From a bacterium (lineage in GTDB: Bacteria > Patescibacteriota > Saccharimonadia > Saccharimonadales > UBA4665), in NCBI GenBank assembly GCA_021803105.1, contig JAJZMC010000010.1, positions 1-64,000 on the forward strand: DNA of 64,000 nucleotides. The letters are read 5' to 3'. A program made the translations under genes and the position numbers. Below the pieces are notes generated by a model that had not been told where the DNA came from, did not search any database, and saw nothing but the letters and a program-made list of their open reading frames with translations. Positions 2,974 to 30,255 of the stretch are shown in pieces (positions within the stretch are counted from its first letter, which is position 1; every line of letters begins with the position of its first letter).

Positions 2974-3516
2974 CTAAAACTTCATAACCCCATCTCTCCC
3001 GACTAACAAACAATCATTATACTTAGCCAGTCTGATAGCAGTTTTAGAATAGTAACTATTAGTAATAACTATAGCCTTATCACAGTTATATACTCTTAAA
3101 GCTGTTATGACTTGTCTAACAGCATTGGCTTTAACTAGTCCTGAATATCTTTTAACTTGGATACCATAACGAATATTGTTTTTTATGGCAATTATATCTA
3201 CTCCTAAATCATATTTTTCGGTGAGTCTAACTTTTGTATATCCCTGATTTTTTAGTAATCCAGCAATATATCTTTCAAAGTCTAATCCAGACATATTATC
3301 TATAGTAGATATATCAATATTATTAAATAAATTTAATTTATTTCTTTTATTTATTATTACTTTAATTAATATTAATAAACCAGTTATTAATATTAAAATT
3401 AAAGATAAATAAAATAATAAATATTTATACTTATGAATACTAGGTATATTAATCCAAATAATTAGCAGAAACAGAAAAGAGAAGAAAGAAACAATACTGT
3501 TATTAGATTTAAACAT
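2974..3516 (-). CDS. Membrane-anchored Mrr-type restriction endonuclease
   Basis: Two hydrophobic helices (about residues 8-25 and 31-53) precede a soluble domain from about residue 75. That domain carries MSGLDFERYIAGLLKNQGY, then DLGVDIIA and GIQVKRY. The Asp plus Gln-x-Lys pattern is the catalytic signature of the Mrr_cat PD-(D/E)XK nuclease family. Such proteins cleave DNA and have been linked to restriction of modified DNA, although membrane-tethered forms are poorly understood. Its ATG overlaps the stop of a degenerate upstream frame by one base (TAATG), so it may once have been the second gene of a coupled pair. Confidence 0.75.
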   Translation of the reverse strand: MFKSNNSIVSFFSFLFLLIIWINIPSIHKYKYLLFYLSLILILITGLLILIKVIINKRNKLNLFNNIDISTIDNMSGLDFERYIAGLLKNQGYTKVRLTEKYDLGVDIIAIKNNIRYGIQVKRYSGLVKANAVRQVITALRVYNCDKAIVITNSYYSKTAIRLAKYNDCLLVGRDGVMKF

Positions 3517-3677
3517 TAGAGTTTGTTTTTATGAATTACAGAATCATTATTAAGCAGGGAAGTAACATGACTTTCTAATAACTTATTAAGCTCAATTAAA
3601 TCTAAATTAGTAGTGGTATTTAAAGTTATATCTATGAAGTCAACGGCGAGCCAAATAGAATATTCAGTATTAACTTC
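3516..3677 (-). pseudogene. Degenerate gene fragment, copy 1, upstream of the Mrr gene
   Basis: An open minus-strand frame includes EYSIWLAVDFIDITL and ends at a TAA fused to the ATG of the Mrr gene. A stop closes it at 3678-3680, with no start codon between. A paralogous fragment lies at 5118-5255, and 37 nt are 35/37 identical between them. No family is recognised. Confidence 0.5.
3621..3657. repeat. 37-nt direct repeat, copy 1 (35/37 identical)
   Basis: Matches 5187-5223 with two differences. The two copies flank the DUF4143 ATPase gene and lie inside two paralogous minus-strand gene fragments. Confidence 0.85.
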
Positions 3678-3797
3678 TTATAAATGGTTAAACAATTTAA
3701 CAAGCCAAGGAGAACAATATATTTTTTTGATTTTAATCTTTTTTAATCAATATCAGTAAGCTTCTTCAATAATTGGTAGATTATAACTATTATCGTT

Positions 3798-3839
3798 ATG
3801 CAATTTCATATTAAATTGCATATTGACATTATGCAATTT
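3798..3839 (+). promoter_or_regulatory. Operator-like triple repeat over the ATPase promoter
   Basis: ATGCAATTT (3798-3806) is inverted at 3813-3821 (AAATTGCAT) and repeated directly at 3831-3839. The repeats bracket and overlap the -35 box, which suggests a dimeric regulator. The regulator is unknown; autoregulation is possible. Confidence 0.55.
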
Positions 3840-3852
3840 ATAGTTATATAAT
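3823..3852 (+). promoter_or_regulatory. Consensus promoter of a leaderless ATPase mRNA
   Basis: A perfect TTGACA (3823-3828), an 18-nt spacer and a perfect TATAAT (3847-3852). The ATG at 3859 starts 6 nt later, so the transcript should begin at or next to the start codon. Confidence 0.8.
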
Positions 3853-3858
3853 TTACTT

Positions 3859-5004
3859 ATGCTAAAAAGATTAATTGAACAAGAAACAAAATCTTATATA
3901 AATAACCCTGATGAAAAAATATTTTTTATTTGGGGACCAAGAAGAAGTGGTAAAACGACGTTACTTAAAAAAATTGCAGGTGAGATTGGAACATCAATCT
4001 TTAATTTTGATTTGCTGTCTGACAGAGAAATTTTCAAACCATCTAAAGAAACACTATCTAGAATTGCATCAGAGCATAAAATAATTTTAATAGATGAGGT
4101 TCAAAGCTATCCTGAAAGCACAATTGCATTAAAGATACTTCATGATATTTATAAAGTAAAAATAATAGCGACAGGGAGTAGCGAACTAAGACAAAAATCT
4201 AAAGATTTTGATTCACTAGCAGGTCGTTATACAGAACATTATTGTTTACCATTATCTATAGATGAGATTAGTGATAATACCATTATTCGTCAGTACGATC
4301 GTACTAATTTTGAATCACAGTTATCTAATGTTTTACAAATTTATGGATCATATCCGGAAGTATACGCCACTAATAATATTAGTGATAATCAAAAAATCGA
4401 ACTACTCCAAAATATTCTTGACTCATATGTTTTAAAAGATGTCATAAATATATATGATCTAAAAAATGAAAAGCTAGCTAAAGATATATTAACTAAAATT
4501 GCTTTACAAATTGGCTCAGAAGTTTCAATTAGAGAAATTGCTAAAAGTCTAGGAGCTAACGATTCAACAGTAGCCAGTTATATTGAAATATTTATTAAAA
4601 ATTACATATTAATTCCTTTACCCTCATTCAAAACAAATTTAAGAAGAGCTATATCAGAAAACAGAAAATTATATTTTTATGACCTTGGGATTAGAAATAT
4701 TCTTGTTAAAGATTTTCGAGAATTAAATTTAAGACCCGACAAAGGCGGGGTATTTGAAAACTTTATAGTTTCAGAAATTGAAAAAAAACGAAGAAATTTA
4801 AAGTCTCAAATTAATATGTATTTTTATAGAGAATATTCAGGTCAAGAAGTGGATATTGTACTTGAAGACTATCATAAAAACTATACTTGCTTAGAGATTA
4901 AAACTAACCCTAATAAACACGTCAAAGATATCTTTCCCATTAATCATAAATTTAAGATTATTAATAGTAGTAATTATTTTGAAACTATTAACAGTATTTT
5001 GTAA
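3859..5004 (+). CDS. AAA-type ATPase with DUF4143 domain
   Basis: A 381-residue protein. Walker A is GPRRSGKT (residues 27-34), Walker B is IILIDEVQ (about 75-82), and a sensor-like segment KIIATGSS lies near 105. The C-terminal half (about 200-381) matches the DUF4143 architecture, including GGVFENFIVSEIEKK and a nuclease-like pattern GQEVDIVLE followed by CLEIK. Family members are common, mobile and of unknown role; links to defence have been suggested. It is monocistronic, driven by a consensus promoter with operator-like repeats, and flanked by duplicated gene fragments, as expected for a gene inserted as a unit. Confidence 0.85.
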   Translation: MLKRLIEQETKSYINNPDEKIFFIWGPRRSGKTTLLKKIAGEIGTSIFNFDLLSDREIFKPSKETLSRIASEHKIILIDEVQSYPESTIALKILHDIYKVKIIATGSSELRQKSKDFDSLAGRYTEHYCLPLSIDEISDNTIIRQYDRTNFESQLSNVLQIYGSYPEVYATNNISDNQKIELLQNILDSYVLKDVINIYDLKNEKLAKDILTKIALQIGSEVSIREIAKSLGANDSTVASYIEIFIKNYILIPLPSFKTNLRRAISENRKLYFYDLGIRNILVKDFRELNLRPDKGGVFENFIVSEIEKKRRNLKSQINMYFYREYSGQEVDIVLEDYHKNYTCLEIKTNPNKHVKDIFPINHKFKIINSSNYFETINSIL

Positions 5005-23067: not shown

Positions 23068-24391
23068 GTGAAACATATTCATGTACTAAGTTCAAAAGAA
23101 CTTGATCGAGCAACTATGTTGCAACGGATTATTAATAAAACAATAACCAAAAAGATGCTGCTAAAAGTTTAGGAATAACTGATCGACAAGTACGTCGCAT
23201 GTTAGTTAAATACCGGTCTGAGGGTACTTCTGGATTAGCTCACAAAGCTAGAGGTAATCCTAGTAATCATCAACTCCCCAAAATACTCAAAGAACACGCC
23301 CTAGAACTAGTACAAACTAAATATCCAGATTTTGGTCCAACATTTGCGGCTGAGAAACTTCAAGAATGTGATGGAATTACGCTTGATCATGAAACACTCC
23401 GTAGGCTAATGATTAAAGAAGGTATTTGGCATCATAAGAAACGTAAACCAACTCATCGTATGCGTCGAGAACGGGGAGCTTGTTATGGAGACATGGAACA
23501 ATTTGATGGATGTCATCACGATTGGTTTGAAGGTAGACTACCAAAAGGTGCATGGGCTACTCTGTTGGCTAGTAGAGATGATGCTAATAACATGGTTTAT
23601 GCCCGTTTTTAGATTATGAAGGAACAAAACCAGTTATGATCTTTTGGCGAGATTATTTTAAAATTCACGGTAAACCTATGAGTATTTATCTAGATAGACA
23701 TAGTACATATAAAGTTAATGATAAAAATGCTCTAGATGATGATGCTATGATTACTCAATTCGAACGGGCTATGAAAGAAGTTGACATTAGGGTGATACAT
23801 GCCAATAGTCCTCAAGCTAAAGGAAGAATAGAAAACTTGTTTGGCACCCTCCAAGATCGTTTAGTTAAAGAATTAAGATTAGCCAATATTAATGATGTAA
23901 AAGAAGCCAATATATTTCTCCAGGATAAATTTCTACCAGCTTTCAATACTCGATTTTCTGTAACTCCACGATCTGATATTGACATTCATCGTCCAGTCAC
24001 TACCAGGGACAATTTAATAGCTGTTTTATCTATCCAGTCAAAGCGTTATATTAATAGAGATTTCACTATTCGATTCAAGAACAACTGGTTACAGCTTACT
24101 AAAGTACAACCTACTTTAGTATTATCTAGTGACCAAGTTCTCATTGAGGAACGATTAGATAACAATCTATATTTAAGATTTAAGGGTAAATATTTAAATT
24201 ACATATTACTTAAAGAAAAACCGACTATTACTCATAAGCTACCAATAGCTTTAGCAACTGATCTATCCTTATCCAAACACAGAGTTCCTACAATACCTAG
24301 TGCTTCTCACCCATGGAGAAAGTTCACTCTATTACCATACAATATTACTAACAAATCTAACCAAAAACTACCATCCAAAAAAATAACTTAA
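23068..24391 (+). pseudogene. ISNCY-family transposase with two single-base frameshifts
   Basis: From a GTG at 23068 the product starts with a helix-turn-helix (DAAKSLGITDRQVRRMLVKY). RNase H-like core sequences follow: GDMEQFDGCHHDWFEG (first Asp), LASRDDANN (after the insertion), SIYLDRHSTYKVN (second Asp) and QAKGRIENLFGTLQDRL (Glu). This is the ISNCY order. Two one-base losses break it. One is in an A run at 23149-23153 (six A would restore the frame). The other is in a T run at 23606-23610 (six T would restore it), giving a TAG inside the catalytic core. Programmed -1 slippage at the T run is conceivable, but the first lesion makes inactivity more likely. Confidence 0.85.
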
Positions 24392-24631: not shown

Positions 24632-24904
24632 TTGAAAATGAATCCAATTATTACTATTGATAAAGTAGTTGACGTTATAGCTGTTTTTAAGAAAGATAAA
24701 AATAAAAAAACAAACTGTTTACCGGCTAAAATACGTTACCAGAATCAAGAAATTATTATTAAACAATTAGCTCTATATCATCCTACAAAAGCTGGTCAAA
24801 GAACAATTCACGTATTTGATGTTAGTGATGGACAAAACGATTATCGACTTGAATTTGATACCCAAAATTTAATCTGGCGTTTAATGGCTATGACAATAAA
24901 CTGA
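24632..24904 (+). CDS. Small partner protein of the Y-family polymerase
   Basis: A 90-residue beta-rich protein (AKIRYQNQEIIIKQLALYHP, IHVFDVSDGQNDYRLEFD, WRLMAM). A Shine-Dalgarno AGGAG lies 8 nt before the ATG. Its stop is 1 nt before the polymerase start, so the two are co-translated. Strand order recalls the small DUF6504-type proteins near Y-family polymerases in Actinobacteria, but that link is by pattern only. It probably works in translesion synthesis with its neighbour. An AGAACGG/CCGTTCT inverted repeat spanning about 50 nt upstream (about 24551-24597) could regulate the operon. Confidence 0.65.
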   Translation: MKMNPIITIDKVVDVIAVFKKDKNKKTNCLPAKIRYQNQEIIIKQLALYHPTKAGQRTIHVFDVSDGQNDYRLEFDTQNLIWRLMAMTIN

Positions 24905-24905
24905 T

Positions 24906-26165
24906 ATGAAAAACTTACTATTAAATAAAGAACTACCTCAAATTATGCATATTGATTTAAATAGTGCTTTCGCTATGATTGAACAACAAGCTCATCCGTC
25001 TTTAAGACATAAAGCTATTGGCGTCACGAATCGAATTTCAAAACATTGCTGTATTATTGCCGCTTCTTATGAAGCTAAAAACCTAGGCATTAAAGTAGGT
25101 ATGAGATTAGATGAAGCCTTATTAATTACACCAAATTTCATTATTTTAGAAACAGATCCAGCTAAATATCATTATGTTTACCAAAAGCTAATGTCTATTA
25201 TGAAAAGTTACTCACCATCTGTAAAAATGAAAAGTATTGATGAGGGTATCATTGATTTTCATGACAGTTTAAAATATGTTCATCATCAATCACTAGAGTC
25301 TATTGGACAAGAAATTAAAGAAAAACTAAAACAAGAAATTGGTGATTGGATAACAGTTAATATCGGTATTGGTACCAATCAGTTTTTAGCAAAAGTAGCA
25401 GCCTCATTACATAAACCCGATGGCATGGATAAGATTGATCATAAAAATTTAATTAAAACCTATCAACAATTAAAACTAACCGATCTTACTGGTATTGCTA
25501 GCCATTATGAAGCAAGATTAAACGCGGCTGGTATTTACACACCCCTTGATTTTTTACAAGCTTCAGCAGATACATTAAATAGACTAGTTTTTCGTAGTGT
25601 CAACGGGGAAAATTGGTATCAAAGATTACGTGGTTTTGAAGTTGATAATTTTACTACCAAACTAGGTCATATTGGCAGACAGTGGGTACTAAATAAACCA
25701 ACTAACCAAAATAACCTACTATTACCATCCCTCCAATTTCTATGTCAAACGACTGGTAAAAAACTACGATTTAAAAATGTTGACGCTAGAGGCATAATGA
25801 TTTGGTTACGATTTAATAACGGGGAAAATTGGTATCAAAGAAAAATGTATAAAGTAAGTTTTTTTAGTGATCATGATATTTATCAAAAAGCACTTTATTT
25901 ATTTAATCAACGTCCAAATAATATGATCGTTCAAACAATGGGTATAACATGCTACCAGTTAACTAAATCCGCTCGTAATCAGATTAGTTTGTTGGATCAA
26001 GTCAATCGTGACCATTGGTTAACTACAGCCATAGATACTATAAATGAAAAATATGGTGATTTTAAAATTTTTAGTGCTGGTTCACTTAATAGCACTAAAC
26101 TTATCAAACAAAAAATACCTTTTGGAGGAACAGAATATTTTAGTCTTTTACTACAGCATAATTAA
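24906..26165 (+). CDS. Y-family DNA polymerase (DinB/ImuB-like)
   Basis: A 419-residue translesion polymerase. Motif I is MHIDLNSAFAMIEQQ (15-29) with the catalytic Asp. KSIDEGIIDF (about 110-119) keeps the Asp-Glu pair. NIGIGTNQFLAKVAASLHKPDGMD (about 150-173) matches the palm helix. These intact residues favour an active polymerase over the inactive ImuB type. The little finger follows, with NGENWYQR occurring twice, 72 codons apart, encoded by an identical 24-nt DNA repeat. It lies directly after the small partner gene and just outside the ISNCY-type element. Confidence 0.9.
   Translation: MKNLLLNKELPQIMHIDLNSAFAMIEQQAHPSLRHKAIGVTNRISKHCCIIAASYEAKNLGIKVGMRLDEALLITPNFIILETDPAKYHYVYQKLMSIMKSYSPSVKMKSIDEGIIDFHDSLKYVHHQSLESIGQEIKEKLKQEIGDWITVNIGIGTNQFLAKVAASLHKPDGMDKIDHKNLIKTYQQLKLTDLTGIASHYEARLNAAGIYTPLDFLQASADTLNRLVFRSVNGENWYQRLRGFEVDNFTTKLGHIGRQWVLNKPTNQNNLLLPSLQFLCQTTGKKLRFKNVDARGIMIWLRFNNGENWYQRKMYKVSFFSDHDIYQKALYLFNQRPNNMIVQTMGITCYQLTKSARNQISLLDQVNRDHWLTTAIDTINEKYGDFKIFSAGSLNSTKLIKQKIPFGGTEYFSLLLQHN
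25602..25841 (+). repeat. 24-nt in-frame direct repeat inside the polymerase gene
   Basis: AACGGGGAAAATTGGTATCA plus four further identical bases occurs at 25602-25625 and at 25818-25841, in the same frame. Both copies encode N-G-E-N-W-Y-Q-R. Confidence 0.9.
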
Positions 26166-26225: not shown

Positions 26226-27329
26226 TTGATTAGCAATTTATTTTTTACATTAAAACAGTCAATAAATCGCTTAATAAAAGAAGACTTCGTACTAGCTATA
26301 ACCCTAGCTTTTATCATAATTATCATTGGTGTTTTAATTGGATATGAAAATACAAGGGTTATGCCTATTACCAAAATAATAGGTAACACTTACACCGGCG
26401 AACCACACAATTATCTAAAATATCTATCAAACTGGGATGGACCAATTTATTTAACAATCGCAAAAAATGGCTACGATCATTTATACTTAGTTAACTTTTT
26501 CCCATTCTATCCATTAGTTGTAAGCTTAGTACACAAAATCATCAATTCTTTACTAGATAGTGGTTTACTCGTAGCTTGGTTAAGTTTAATTGGAGCAATT
26601 TATTTCTACATTAAAATAGTTAAAGACTACTTTAAAATTAAATCAACCGAAGATATTATTAAAGCAACTCTGTTATTTATTTTATTCCCATCTGCTATAT
26701 TTTTTGTAGCTACCTTCACTGAAAGTTTGTTTGCTTTAGTTTCACTTGGAGCAATCTATTATGCCATGAAAAATAATTATAAATTAGCCGGTTTGCTAAC
26801 AATGATAGCAACGGCTACAAGAGTTAATGGAGTCTTTATTGTTATCTTTATTGGACTAATTTTATACTTCAATAAACAAAAAATTAAAGACGTCATTTTA
26901 AGTATGACTATTGGAAGCTTAGGAATTATATCTTATATGAGTGCCTTACTAATACGATTTCATAATCCTATAGAATTTATTAAAACTCAGCAAAATCATG
27001 GCTGGTTACAACATTCTTTTCTAAATAACTTAGTCCATATATCAACACTAAATTTATTATTCTTATTACCAGTTATAGTATCCATAGTATATTGGTGGAA
27101 AAAGGACAAAAGTTTTTCAATTTATAGTTTTTTATATTTACTTATACCAATTATAGGAGGACAGTTTGGTGGTTTTGCTAGATACGCATTAATGGTTTTT
27201 CCAGTCCCACTAATGCTATACGATTATACTAAAGATAAACAAATAGCCTACAATATAATACTTATAGCATTTAGTATGGGGTGGACTTATTTAATGATTC
27301 AGTATGTTGGTGGTTATATTGGGGGTTAA
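26226..27329 (+). CDS. PIG-V-like GT-C mannosyltransferase
   Basis: A 367-residue membrane protein with about nine helices. NWDGPIYLTIAKNGY (about 71-85), FFPFYPLVV and the FPSAIFFVATFTESLF segment match the PIG-V/GPI-mannosyltransferase-like family of GT-C enzymes, which use polyprenyl-phosphate sugars on the outer face. ATRVNGVFI is also typical. The start is TTG at 26226 with GAGAGGG 6 nt upstream. With the GT2, GT-C and flippase-like genes at 30335-33809 it may build a surface glycan. Confidence 0.8.
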   Translation: MISNLFFTLKQSINRLIKEDFVLAITLAFIIIIIGVLIGYENTRVMPITKIIGNTYTGEPHNYLKYLSNWDGPIYLTIAKNGYDHLYLVNFFPFYPLVVSLVHKIINSLLDSGLLVAWLSLIGAIYFYIKIVKDYFKIKSTEDIIKATLLFILFPSAIFFVATFTESLFALVSLGAIYYAMKNNYKLAGLLTMIATATRVNGVFIVIFIGLILYFNKQKIKDVILSMTIGSLGIISYMSALLIRFHNPIEFIKTQQNHGWLQHSFLNNLVHISTLNLLFLLPVIVSIVYWWKKDKSFSIYSFLYLLIPIIGGQFGGFARYALMVFPVPLMLYDYTKDKQIAYNIILIAFSMGWTYLMIQYVGGYIGG

Positions 27330-27395: not shown

Positions 27396-27848
27396 ATGAA
27401 ATCCTTAAACAACTATCAATTTTTTAATCACATTAATGATAAATATCCATTGTTGGATTTTGAACTTCAATTAGCAGAAAAAAAAATTCTTGATCCATTA
27501 GTAGATCATAACCTACTACTCATAATTGATAAGATCTTGCGTTATCAAAACTATCAAACCTATAAGGCACCTAAAATTAATTACCCCGTAGTAACACTAG
27601 GCAGTCGAGTAGCGATTAAAACATCCGATGATAATTACACTGTTGATATAGTTGGTATTAAAGAATTAGGTCAAAATAACGAAACCGAATACTGCACTCC
27701 ATCTTCACCGATCGCTAAAGCTGTAATAGGCAAACAAATTGGAGAAACAGCTTTATTAACTATTCATAAACCAATAGAAATAAAGATTATAAGCATTGAT
27801 CAAACATCAGTTCAAGACGACCTAAAAAAACAACTAGCAAGTTATTAA
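27396..27848 (+). CDS. GreA/GreB-like protein with atypical N-terminus
   Basis: A 150-residue protein. Residues about 70-140 match the C-terminal FKBP-like domain of Gre factors: VTLGSRVAIK, then TVDIVGIKELG, TPSSPIAKAVIGKQIGETAL and IKIISI. The first 60 residues do not show the usual long coiled coil with acidic tip residues that enters the RNA polymerase channel. It may therefore bind polymerase without stimulating transcript cleavage, like other Gre-domain regulators. It lies 86 nt before the Dop/PafA homologue on the same strand. TATAAT is 11 nt upstream. Confidence 0.75.
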   Translation: MKSLNNYQFFNHINDKYPLLDFELQLAEKKILDPLVDHNLLLIIDKILRYQNYQTYKAPKINYPVVTLGSRVAIKTSDDNYTVDIVGIKELGQNNETEYCTPSSPIAKAVIGKQIGETALLTIHKPIEIKIISIDQTSVQDDLKKQLASY

Positions 27849-27934: not shown

Positions 27935-29326
27935 ATGAACAGCGTGAGACCTGTAGATTTTTTTAGTGAATCACCACCAGAACGAATAATTGGCACCGAA
28001 ATGGAAACATCCGTTCAGGCTAGGTATGGTGATGATTCTGATCAGCTTAATCAAGAATTACTACATAACTGGTATTACAGAAACTTAAGGTTATTAAAAA
28101 TATCTAATTTTTTAAGTAATGGCTATAAACTATATGACGATTGTGGTTTATTAGAAATCGCAAGTCCAGAATGTCTTGGACCTAAGCAAGCCGCTATTTA
28201 CGATTTTGCTGGAATATCTATTGTTTCTAAAATAGCTAGCTCATCACCAATAGTAAAAGGAGTTTATCGAACTACTGGTATGCAAAATATAGAAGGAGGC
28301 TATATATCACAAGGATATCATGAAAATTATTTAGTTGCTTCTGAAAGTATATCAACTCAATTACTTCAAACTATTTTAGCCAGTTTTTTAATCAGTAAAA
28401 CATGGTCTGGCGCTGGAACATTAAAAAATGGTTTTCAACTTTCACAGAAATTTCCAAGTATTGGAGGATCTTCGGTTACTAATGACATGTCCAGAAGAAC
28501 TCAAGAAGGTAATAAGCCCATGATTATGCTACCAGAAATAGAAAATAATGATTCTACAACGATTGGAAACGATAACAATTGGTCACGAATAGAAATTCGT
28601 TCATCTGATGCTAATTTTTCTAAATCAATCACTTATCTTAATCTAGCCACAACTTCACTAATACTACGATTATTTGAACATCCTAATATTGTCAATCTAA
28701 AAAAATTACATTCATACTCCTTTAAAAATATTCTGGAAGGTAAAGAAATATTTAACAGTGATTTAACTTTTTCTAAAACATTACAAACACAAAACAACAA
28801 TTTCATCAGTGCTATTAATTATCAGCAGCTTTTACTAGATAGTTGTCGCGATTTATCCAATAGAATAAACTTACCAGATAGTGAAACCAATATATTTAAT
28901 TTATGGCAAGAAGTAATCGATAATTTAACAAAAGCTAACTTAGAAAATAATGAATATGCCAATTTATTGGAATTGGTTGGTTTCGCCGGTCTACATTATT
29001 ACTTAACTAAAAAAAATGGTTCAAATAACCTAAAAAAACCGAGCTATGAAACTATTAAAGCTCAACTTCTATGGAATCAGATTTATCCAAGCTCTGGTCC
29101 AGCTCAAAAATATTGGTCAAAAGTATCTAATGATAATTTTTTTATTAAAGACTCTGATATCACACAGGCTATCGTGGAGCCCCCACTCACTAGAGCCAAT
29201 AGACGAGCTTCATTAATTAAAACTCATTACAGTAATATAACTCTCATCGATTGGGCAATTGTAAGTATCAATCGTAAAGACGACATAAAACAACTTTTCG
29301 AATTAAATAATCCATATGAATTCTAA
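27935..29326 (+). CDS. Dop/PafA-family protein (Pup deamidase/ligase homologue)
   Basis: A 463-residue carboxylate-amine-ligase-fold protein. IIGTEMETSVQ (18-28) supplies the E-x-E Mg/ATP residues. NGYKLYDDCGLLEIASPEC (62-80) aligns with the segment holding the catalytic Asp of Dop and PafA (here Asp69) and its PEC motif. SQGYHENYLVASE, KNGFQLSQKFPSI, IEIRSSDANFSKSITYLNLA with TTSLIL, and ITQAIVEPPLTRANRRASL follow in Dop order. The GFQLSQ and VEPP segments look more like Dop than PafA. Dop removes or deamidates Pup, the bacterial proteasome tag. No Pup, PafA, Mpa or proteasome gene is in the window, so its substrate is open. Confidence 0.85.
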   Translation: MNSVRPVDFFSESPPERIIGTEMETSVQARYGDDSDQLNQELLHNWYYRNLRLLKISNFLSNGYKLYDDCGLLEIASPECLGPKQAAIYDFAGISIVSKIASSSPIVKGVYRTTGMQNIEGGYISQGYHENYLVASESISTQLLQTILASFLISKTWSGAGTLKNGFQLSQKFPSIGGSSVTNDMSRRTQEGNKPMIMLPEIENNDSTTIGNDNNWSRIEIRSSDANFSKSITYLNLATTSLILRLFEHPNIVNLKKLHSYSFKNILEGKEIFNSDLTFSKTLQTQNNNFISAINYQQLLLDSCRDLSNRINLPDSETNIFNLWQEVIDNLTKANLENNEYANLLELVGFAGLHYYLTKKNGSNNLKKPSYETIKAQLLWNQIYPSSGPAQKYWSKVSNDNFFIKDSDITQAIVEPPLTRANRRASLIKTHYSNITLIDWAIVSINRKDDIKQLFELNNPYEF

Positions 29327-29425
29327 ATAACAAAATAAATAATTTAAATAAATATTAACCAATAGTTAACGATATTATCTATTAATTTCAGTAAAAATTA
29401 TTAATGTTTTAAAATAAAAGTAATA

Positions 29426-30031
29426 ATGCATCAAAATTTACCTGCTTTTATAGAAACACTATCTCCAATTATTAATCAATATGGCTACTTAGCGATTGGT
29501 GGTTTAATAACCCTAGAAGACTTCGGTATACCGGCACCAGGTGAAACAGTTTTAATCACAGCCGCAGTCTTTGCTGGATTAGGTCACTTAAACATTTTTA
29601 TTGTTATAATAACCGCCATCATCGGAGCTGTGATTGGTGATAATATCGGTTTTAGTATCGGATATTTTGGTGAACAAGCTATAATTGAAAAATATGGCAG
29701 ATATATTTTTTTAACTAAAGAAAGGTTAGAAAAATTAAAAACTATCTTTAACAAAAAAGGTTACCTAATAGTTATATTTGCTAGGTTCATTGAAGGCTTA
29801 AGACAAGCTAACGGTATTATAGCTGGACTAAGTGAAATGAGTTGGCAAAGATTTCTTCTATATAACACTATTGGGGCCACCCTATGGGTAACTTTATGGG
29901 CCAGTATCGGTTACTTTAGTGCCAATTACATCAACTCTTTATTAAAATATCAAACTTATTTAACAATAATCGTCACTATACTTATCTTAGCCTTAATTGG
30001 ATATAAACTATTAAAAAAATACAAGCGCTAA
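29426..30031 (+). CDS. DedA-family membrane protein
   Basis: A 201-residue protein with the DedA/SNARE-associated signature: LEDFGIPAPGETVLI (about 29-43), GAVIGDNIGFSIGYFGE (about 72-88) and FARFIEGLRQANGIIAGLSEMSWQRFLLYN (about 118-147). The key Glu and Arg residues of the re-entrant loops are present. Members flip phospholipids or undecaprenyl phosphate across the membrane. It ends 4 bp inside a convergent small gene. Confidence 0.9.
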   Translation: MHQNLPAFIETLSPIINQYGYLAIGGLITLEDFGIPAPGETVLITAAVFAGLGHLNIFIVIITAIIGAVIGDNIGFSIGYFGEQAIIEKYGRYIFLTKERLEKLKTIFNKKGYLIVIFARFIEGLRQANGIIAGLSEMSWQRFLLYNTIGATLWVTLWASIGYFSANYINSLLKYQTYLTIIVTILILALIGYKLLKKYKR

Positions 30032-30255
30032 ATATTTTTTCTTTGATCGTATAATATTTTAGAATAATAAATAGCTCTAGCCTCTGCAGCCGTAACAGAT
30101 CGTCCAAGTAAAACCTCTGACTGTGTTTTAATACTCATGATCAGCTTCTCTTGTTGTTCATCAGACAAAACACCAAATCGTGCTACTTCATAATGCTTAA
30201 TTAATTCATTATTAAAATTGCAGTCTGGAATAAAATTTTGATTTTCAGCACTCAT
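30028..30255 (-). CDS. Small hypothetical protein
   Basis: A 75-residue soluble protein with a helical middle (LSDEQQEKLIMSIKTQSEVLLGRSVTAAEARAIYYSK, positions about 30-66). A TATAAT box lies about 12 nt before the ATG. Overlaps the end of the DedA gene by 4 bp. No known family. Confidence 0.5.
   Translation of the reverse strand: MSAENQNFIPDCNFNNELIKHYEVARFGVLSDEQQEKLIMSIKTQSEVLLGRSVTAAEARAIYYSKILYDQRKNI

Follow-up and report, generated by a model that had tools for sequence, protein, structure and literature searches.

Most known pupylation is actinobacterial, cases in other groups being few and scattered, and the UBact systems are Pup-like systems of Gram-negative bacteria that reportedly extend to candidate phyla. 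Earlier work has already recorded Pup beyond the Actinobacteria and in the absence of proteasome genes (PMC2588565, PMC3511204), with Pup–PafA loci lacking proteasome genes in Plesiocystis and Rhodopirellula (PMC2588565) and in corynebacteria (PMC3511204). For Dop, D94 has been named as the probable base, with the catalytic phosphate in contact with Arg227 and His241 (PMC8599861). Strand 6 carries a [QH]x4D motif in PafA, whereas the rest of the superfamily has Ex[RK]x2D at this position (PMC2588565). In the open-access literature, our searches turned up no paper that links Pup to Saccharibacteria or Patescibacteria. Here we report a Pup_ligase-family (PafA/Dop-like) enzyme encoded in a 64,000-nucleotide stretch of Saccharimonadales DNA, the whole of which is called the window below. 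Analysis of the gene, its relatives and its source genome leads us to favour, as the likelier account, an active glutamine synthetase (GS)-type, ATP-dependent enzyme of a divergent PafA/Dop branch that would act on the C-terminal Glu or Gln of a small tag, in a genome without a recognisable Pup.

The gene (positions 27935 to 29326, forward strand) is an intact open reading frame with an ATG start and encodes 463 residues. Its G+C content at the three codon positions (0.39, 0.35 and 0.20) resembles that of the coding neighbours, within a window of 31% G+C, and it is the sole PF03136 gene of the source assembly (810 kb, 97% complete). The first-pass annotation had assigned the product to the Dop/PafA clan from its motifs, and profile searches agree, placing it inside the Pup_ligase family with a PF03136 match of 142 bits (cut-off 25; E = 3e-41) that spans residues 9 to 442, nearly the whole model. 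The Dop (TIGR03688) and PafA (TIGR03686) equivalog profiles both match over the full length of the enzyme, with scores of 106 and 82.4 bits that lie below their cut-offs of 492 and 551, respectively, Dop scoring above PafA. A profile of close relatives searched against solved structures retrieved Dop and PafA chains only, with Dop at the top (E = 3e-40). A first scan of genome contigs with the single protein as the query gave no match, and an AlphaFold model built from three sequences had a pLDDT of 40, too poor for use. The motifs that had been noticed by eye are all present: the ExE metal site (G20-T-E22-M-E24, GTEME), the catalytic segment YDDCGLLEIASPEC with its Asp at the Dop/PafA position (D69, E74 and E79), HENYL (H129 and N131), GFQLSQ (Q171, next to K172) and the late VEPP motif within VEPPLTRA (P417 and R420, with R424 beyond). 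The enzyme carries the GhExE motif of strand 1, with Thr at the h position, as is common among its relatives, and the [HQ]x[NH] motif of strand 4, as H129-E-N131.

To map the active site, we aligned 58 proteins to Acidothermus Dop. The metal and ATP ligands and the catalytic Asp are intact in the window enzyme, in which Dop Tyr92 (Y67), D94 (D69), E99 (E74), E104 (E79), His155 (H129) and Asn157 (N131) are all kept. Dop Arg227, the conserved Arg of the RDEPH segment, is replaced by P200 and is absent from almost all proteins of the branch to which the enzyme belongs (the ExR branch); Dop His241 corresponds to E220, and Dop position 243 to R222. The loss of ATP-site residues, raised at the outset as a possible argument against family membership, thus applies to the Arg227 and His241 positions, which are replaced branch-wide, but not to the metal and ATP ligands. 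Strand 6 of the window enzyme reads E220-I-R222-S-S-D225, the general superfamily form ExRxxD rather than [QH]x4D. In a profile comparison that is not significant overall, E220 and R222 are placed on E357 and R359 of E. coli GlnA, residues that serve as metal and substrate contacts in GS. With its counterparts of Arg227 and His241 gone, the enzyme may have altered or different chemistry.

The ExR branch consists of the window clade with its sisters (15 rows) and two further clades, of 15 proteins in all, for which the searched genomes yielded no Pup. E220 is found in all 30 of its proteins and R222 in 29. Because most members of one Pup-less clade (L133–L137 and L139–L142) have Gly in the column of the catalytic Asp, the branch is not functionally uniform. 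Among the 23 other ExR proteins aligned, 26 positions are at least 90% conserved; the window enzyme agrees at every one of them, which points to constraint and, hence, to an enzyme that is probably active.

The first-pass annotation had seen no Pup or proteasome genes, and genome-wide searches of the source assembly, from which about 3% is missing, bear this out. No Pup was detected with PF05639, or at E ≤ 1 with a Saccharimonadales-specific profile built from 20 Pups, in a search that used a loose first look; when all frames were checked across the genome, no plausible small open reading frame ended in GG[EQ] or NG[EQ]. The assembly also contains no 20S proteasome subunit, no second PF03136 gene, and no Mpa/ARC; the top Mpa/ARC match is partial, confined to the AAA domain within a frame of 634 codons and well short of the cut-off, and we read this frame, by its size, as FtsH.

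Matches to PF03136 occur in 6 of 380 genomes of a phylum-wide sample and in 58 of 393 genomes of the window's order, Saccharimonadales, in which the branch is patchily distributed; two near homologues of the enzyme (in G031 and G388) come from this same order. Pup exceeds the PF05639 cut-off in 19 of the 393 Saccharimonadales genomes, and one more, diverged Pup is found in G584. Pup is present in 19 of the 58 enzyme-bearing genomes, as compared with 1 of the 335 others once three weak long-frame matches are set aside. That one genome, G488 (L060), has a clear Pup and no PF03136 match. Pup is also the most recurrent partner gene, occurring in 9 of the 45 neighbourhoods compared; other genes recur in six at most and have the look of shared local gene order. 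No proteasome (PF00227) was detected in the 23 genomes checked, 20 of which have Pup, and no Mpa/ARC match (TIGR03689) exceeded the cut-off in the genomes checked except in G600. The Mpa-like fragments of this genome (L160; G600:C6:1-609) lie at contig ends, one of them over the cut-off, with a G+C content of 0.57 versus about 0.53 elsewhere, and may represent either a real gene or contamination. In another locus (L010), positions 3100 to 4000 have 62% G+C inside a 40% G+C locus, a possible chimeric assembly.

A phage origin of the enzyme was considered and rejected. A scan of viral contigs revealed no relatives of the enzyme, and the sole 'phage' match, MT835496, is an actinobacterial-looking Mpa–Dop–Pup–PafA cluster and not a phage gene. 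The record itself (MT835496.1; L021), labelled Bacteriophage sp., has ordinary chromosomal genes and is probably mislabelled. A plasmid link was likewise rejected, the matches being distant actinobacterial Dop/PafA proteins.

The window's own clade has nine other members, and in seven of them (G562, G590, G388, G472, G584, G706 and G551) Pup lies directly beside the enzyme, in convergent orientation. These Pups match PF05639, that of G584 falling just under the cut-off, and end in GGE, GGQ or NGQ. In G543, the contig ends shortly after the enzyme gene. Two clade members, the window and G031, have both flanks sequenced and no Pup there; the genome of G031 (99% complete) contains no Pup elsewhere either. 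The earlier suggestion of a distant pupylation system is therefore strongly supported for the clade, with Pup beside the enzyme in seven of ten members, but not for the source genome, in which Pup was not detected. In the larger tree, the window enzyme pairs with that of G031 (SH-aLRT 94) and then joins those of G562 and G590 (85), inside the ten-member clade (98). The smaller, more careful tree recovers the window/G031/G562/G590 group (87/94) within an eleven-row set (86/84), and the window–G031 pair is not separated out. Mapped onto the tree, the presence of Pup requires just two to three changes over 18 scored rows, with modest support for the deep branches. In the Pups of G388 and G472 (L122:6610-6879 and L125:7265-7519), PF05639 matches two separate segments, as a duplication of the acidic helix would produce. 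In G706 (ExR enzyme with Pup), G362 (Pup–PafA type) and G501 (L126, L011 and L159, respectively), the enzyme sits among the same neighbour families, which suggests cassette exchange at one site.

At the window locus, a PIG-V-like mannosyltransferase gene (26226 to 27329, forward strand) shares 41% identity with the gene immediately 5′ of the G472 cassette of enzyme and Pup, and thereby anchors the synteny. In G472, the order is mannosyltransferase, enzyme and convergent Pup; in the window, it is mannosyltransferase, Gre-domain protein, enzyme, a 99-base gap and DedA. The immediate neighbours are as first described: a GreA/GreB C-terminal-domain protein (27396 to 27848, forward strand), which lies between the mannosyltransferase and the enzyme and is not recurrent beside homologues, and a DedA/VTT membrane protein (29426 to 30031, forward strand), which follows on the 3′ side in Pup's place. 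The gap (29327 to 29425), where relatives carry their convergent Pup, is too short for one. Since the locus is partly syntenic with the G472 cassette, Pup has probably been lost from the window's genome, a conclusion that the partial synteny fits, short of proof. Two nearby frames were rejected as candidate tags: a 75-residue open reading frame in the window (30028 to 30255) and a 143-residue one upstream of the G031 enzyme, neither of which has a Pfam match or a Pup-type C terminus. Farther upstream in the window, two adjacent open reading frames (23199 to 24391) look, from their translations, like a split IS-type transposase with a frameshift or stop between them, and a Y-family DNA polymerase gene (PF00817) with a small upstream open reading frame occupies positions 24632 to 26165. 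The enzyme also has Y-family polymerase genes in its vicinity in G401, G424 and G604, and in G328 it is adjoined by a LexA-like open reading frame; a link of these loci to DNA damage is possible.

The absence of a detectable Pup could be read as incomplete recovery, the source genome having an ordinary single-enzyme pupylation system whose true Pup falls in the unassembled portion or has a distant, missed form. The assembly is indeed 97% complete, and the related genomes G312, G384, G385, G520 and G582 have Pup and the enzyme well apart or on different contigs. However, Pup adjoins the enzyme in the clade relatives, where the window has only 99 bases; the searches for small GG[EQ] or NG[EQ] frames and for profile matches came up empty; and the near relative G031, whose assembly is still more complete, lacks Pup as well. 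We consider this reading rather improbable. Somewhat more credible, though still unlikely, is a departure from Pup biology altogether, in which the enzyme is an amidoligase or amidase acting on a small metabolite or on the C-terminal Glu or Gln of another protein. Consistent with such a departure, ExRxxD is a general motif of the GS/GCS superfamily (PMC2588565), and no Pup turned up in the searched genomes of the two other ExR clades. The ExR motif alone, however, implies no new substrate, because seven proteins with an adjacent Pup share the same active site, and no alternative widely recurrent neighbour gene emerged from the 45 loci.

Many Actinobacteria, the hosts of Saccharibacteria, produce Pup, and an enzyme from a genome without its own Pup might conceivably act on that of the host. 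No secretion route was seen, however, and the relatives carry their own Pup, which makes this idea very improbable.

We therefore return to the favoured reading, an active GS-type enzyme directed at a small tag. Judging from its fold and residues, the enzyme would bind Mg-ATP, like other GS-fold carboxylate-amine ligases; the side chain of the C-terminal Glu (or the Gln amide) on a small acidic tag would be phosphorylated, and the bond to an amine would then be formed or hydrolysed. The strand-6 ExRxxD motif may take over the phosphate handling of His241 and Arg227 in Dop/PafA, in a glutamine-synthetase arrangement. As most clade Pups end in Gln and most genomes have one enzyme, a single protein probably both deamidates and ligates in this clade. 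The cues to direction are mixed, the Dop-loop being absent as in PafA and the Asp–Glu spacing being that of Dop. Since, in the genomes checked, the proteasome is missing and Mpa is confined to G600, the classical route would not be open to the tag. Following the probable loss of Pup, the substrate of the window enzyme may be a tag whose divergence hides it from detection, or else some other protein with a C-terminal Glu or Gln. A bolder and more doubtful proposal, which we offer as tentative, is that the branch represents previously undescribed Pup enzymes with a GS-type active site, maybe a pre-PafA/Dop state, forming, together with the convergent Pup, a minimal tagging system that has no proteasome and relies on a single enzyme to activate the tag and to attach it, and that in lineages like that of the window this enzyme has been freed from Pup for a new substrate. 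The existence in ultra-small Saccharibacteria of a single-enzyme form without a proteasome, whose active site has changed and whose tag some lineages have lost, opens two questions to testing: what role Pup tagging has without degradation, and how a common GS-type ancestor gave rise to the ligase and hydrolase activities.

A comparison with known systems places the enzyme among several relatives. It has the ExE metal motif and the strand-6 ExRxxD motif in common with the glutamine synthetase/GCS2 carboxylate-amine ligases, but its overall comparisons with GlnA and YbdK of E. coli are not significant. Dop (TIGR03688; Acidothermus 4b0r/5lrt and 9cku) is its best match in both the PDB and NCBIfam, and the two share the catalytic Asp, the Glu ligands, the HxN strand, the TRA..R C-terminal motif and the Asp-to-Glu spacing. 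Unlike Dop, the window enzyme lacks the Dop-loop, with 42 residues between the ExE glycine and NG..Y as compared with about 80 in Dop, has lost Arg227, has Glu for His241 and Lys for Arg205, and is without Pup. PafA (TIGR03686; 4b0t/4bjr) belongs to the same fold family and has nearly the same ExE to NG..Y distance (43 residues), but differs in having [QH]x4D instead of ExRxxD on strand 6 and in possessing the RDEPH motif, which is absent from the window enzyme. Although the Saccharimonadales cassettes differ from the proteasome-less Pup–PafA loci of Plesiocystis, Rhodopirellula and corynebacteria in mostly having one enzyme and no proteasomal ATPase, in the convergent Pup of the window clade and in the missing Pup of the window itself, they resemble these loci in combining Pup-type tagging genes with the absence of a proteasome, outside the classical setting.
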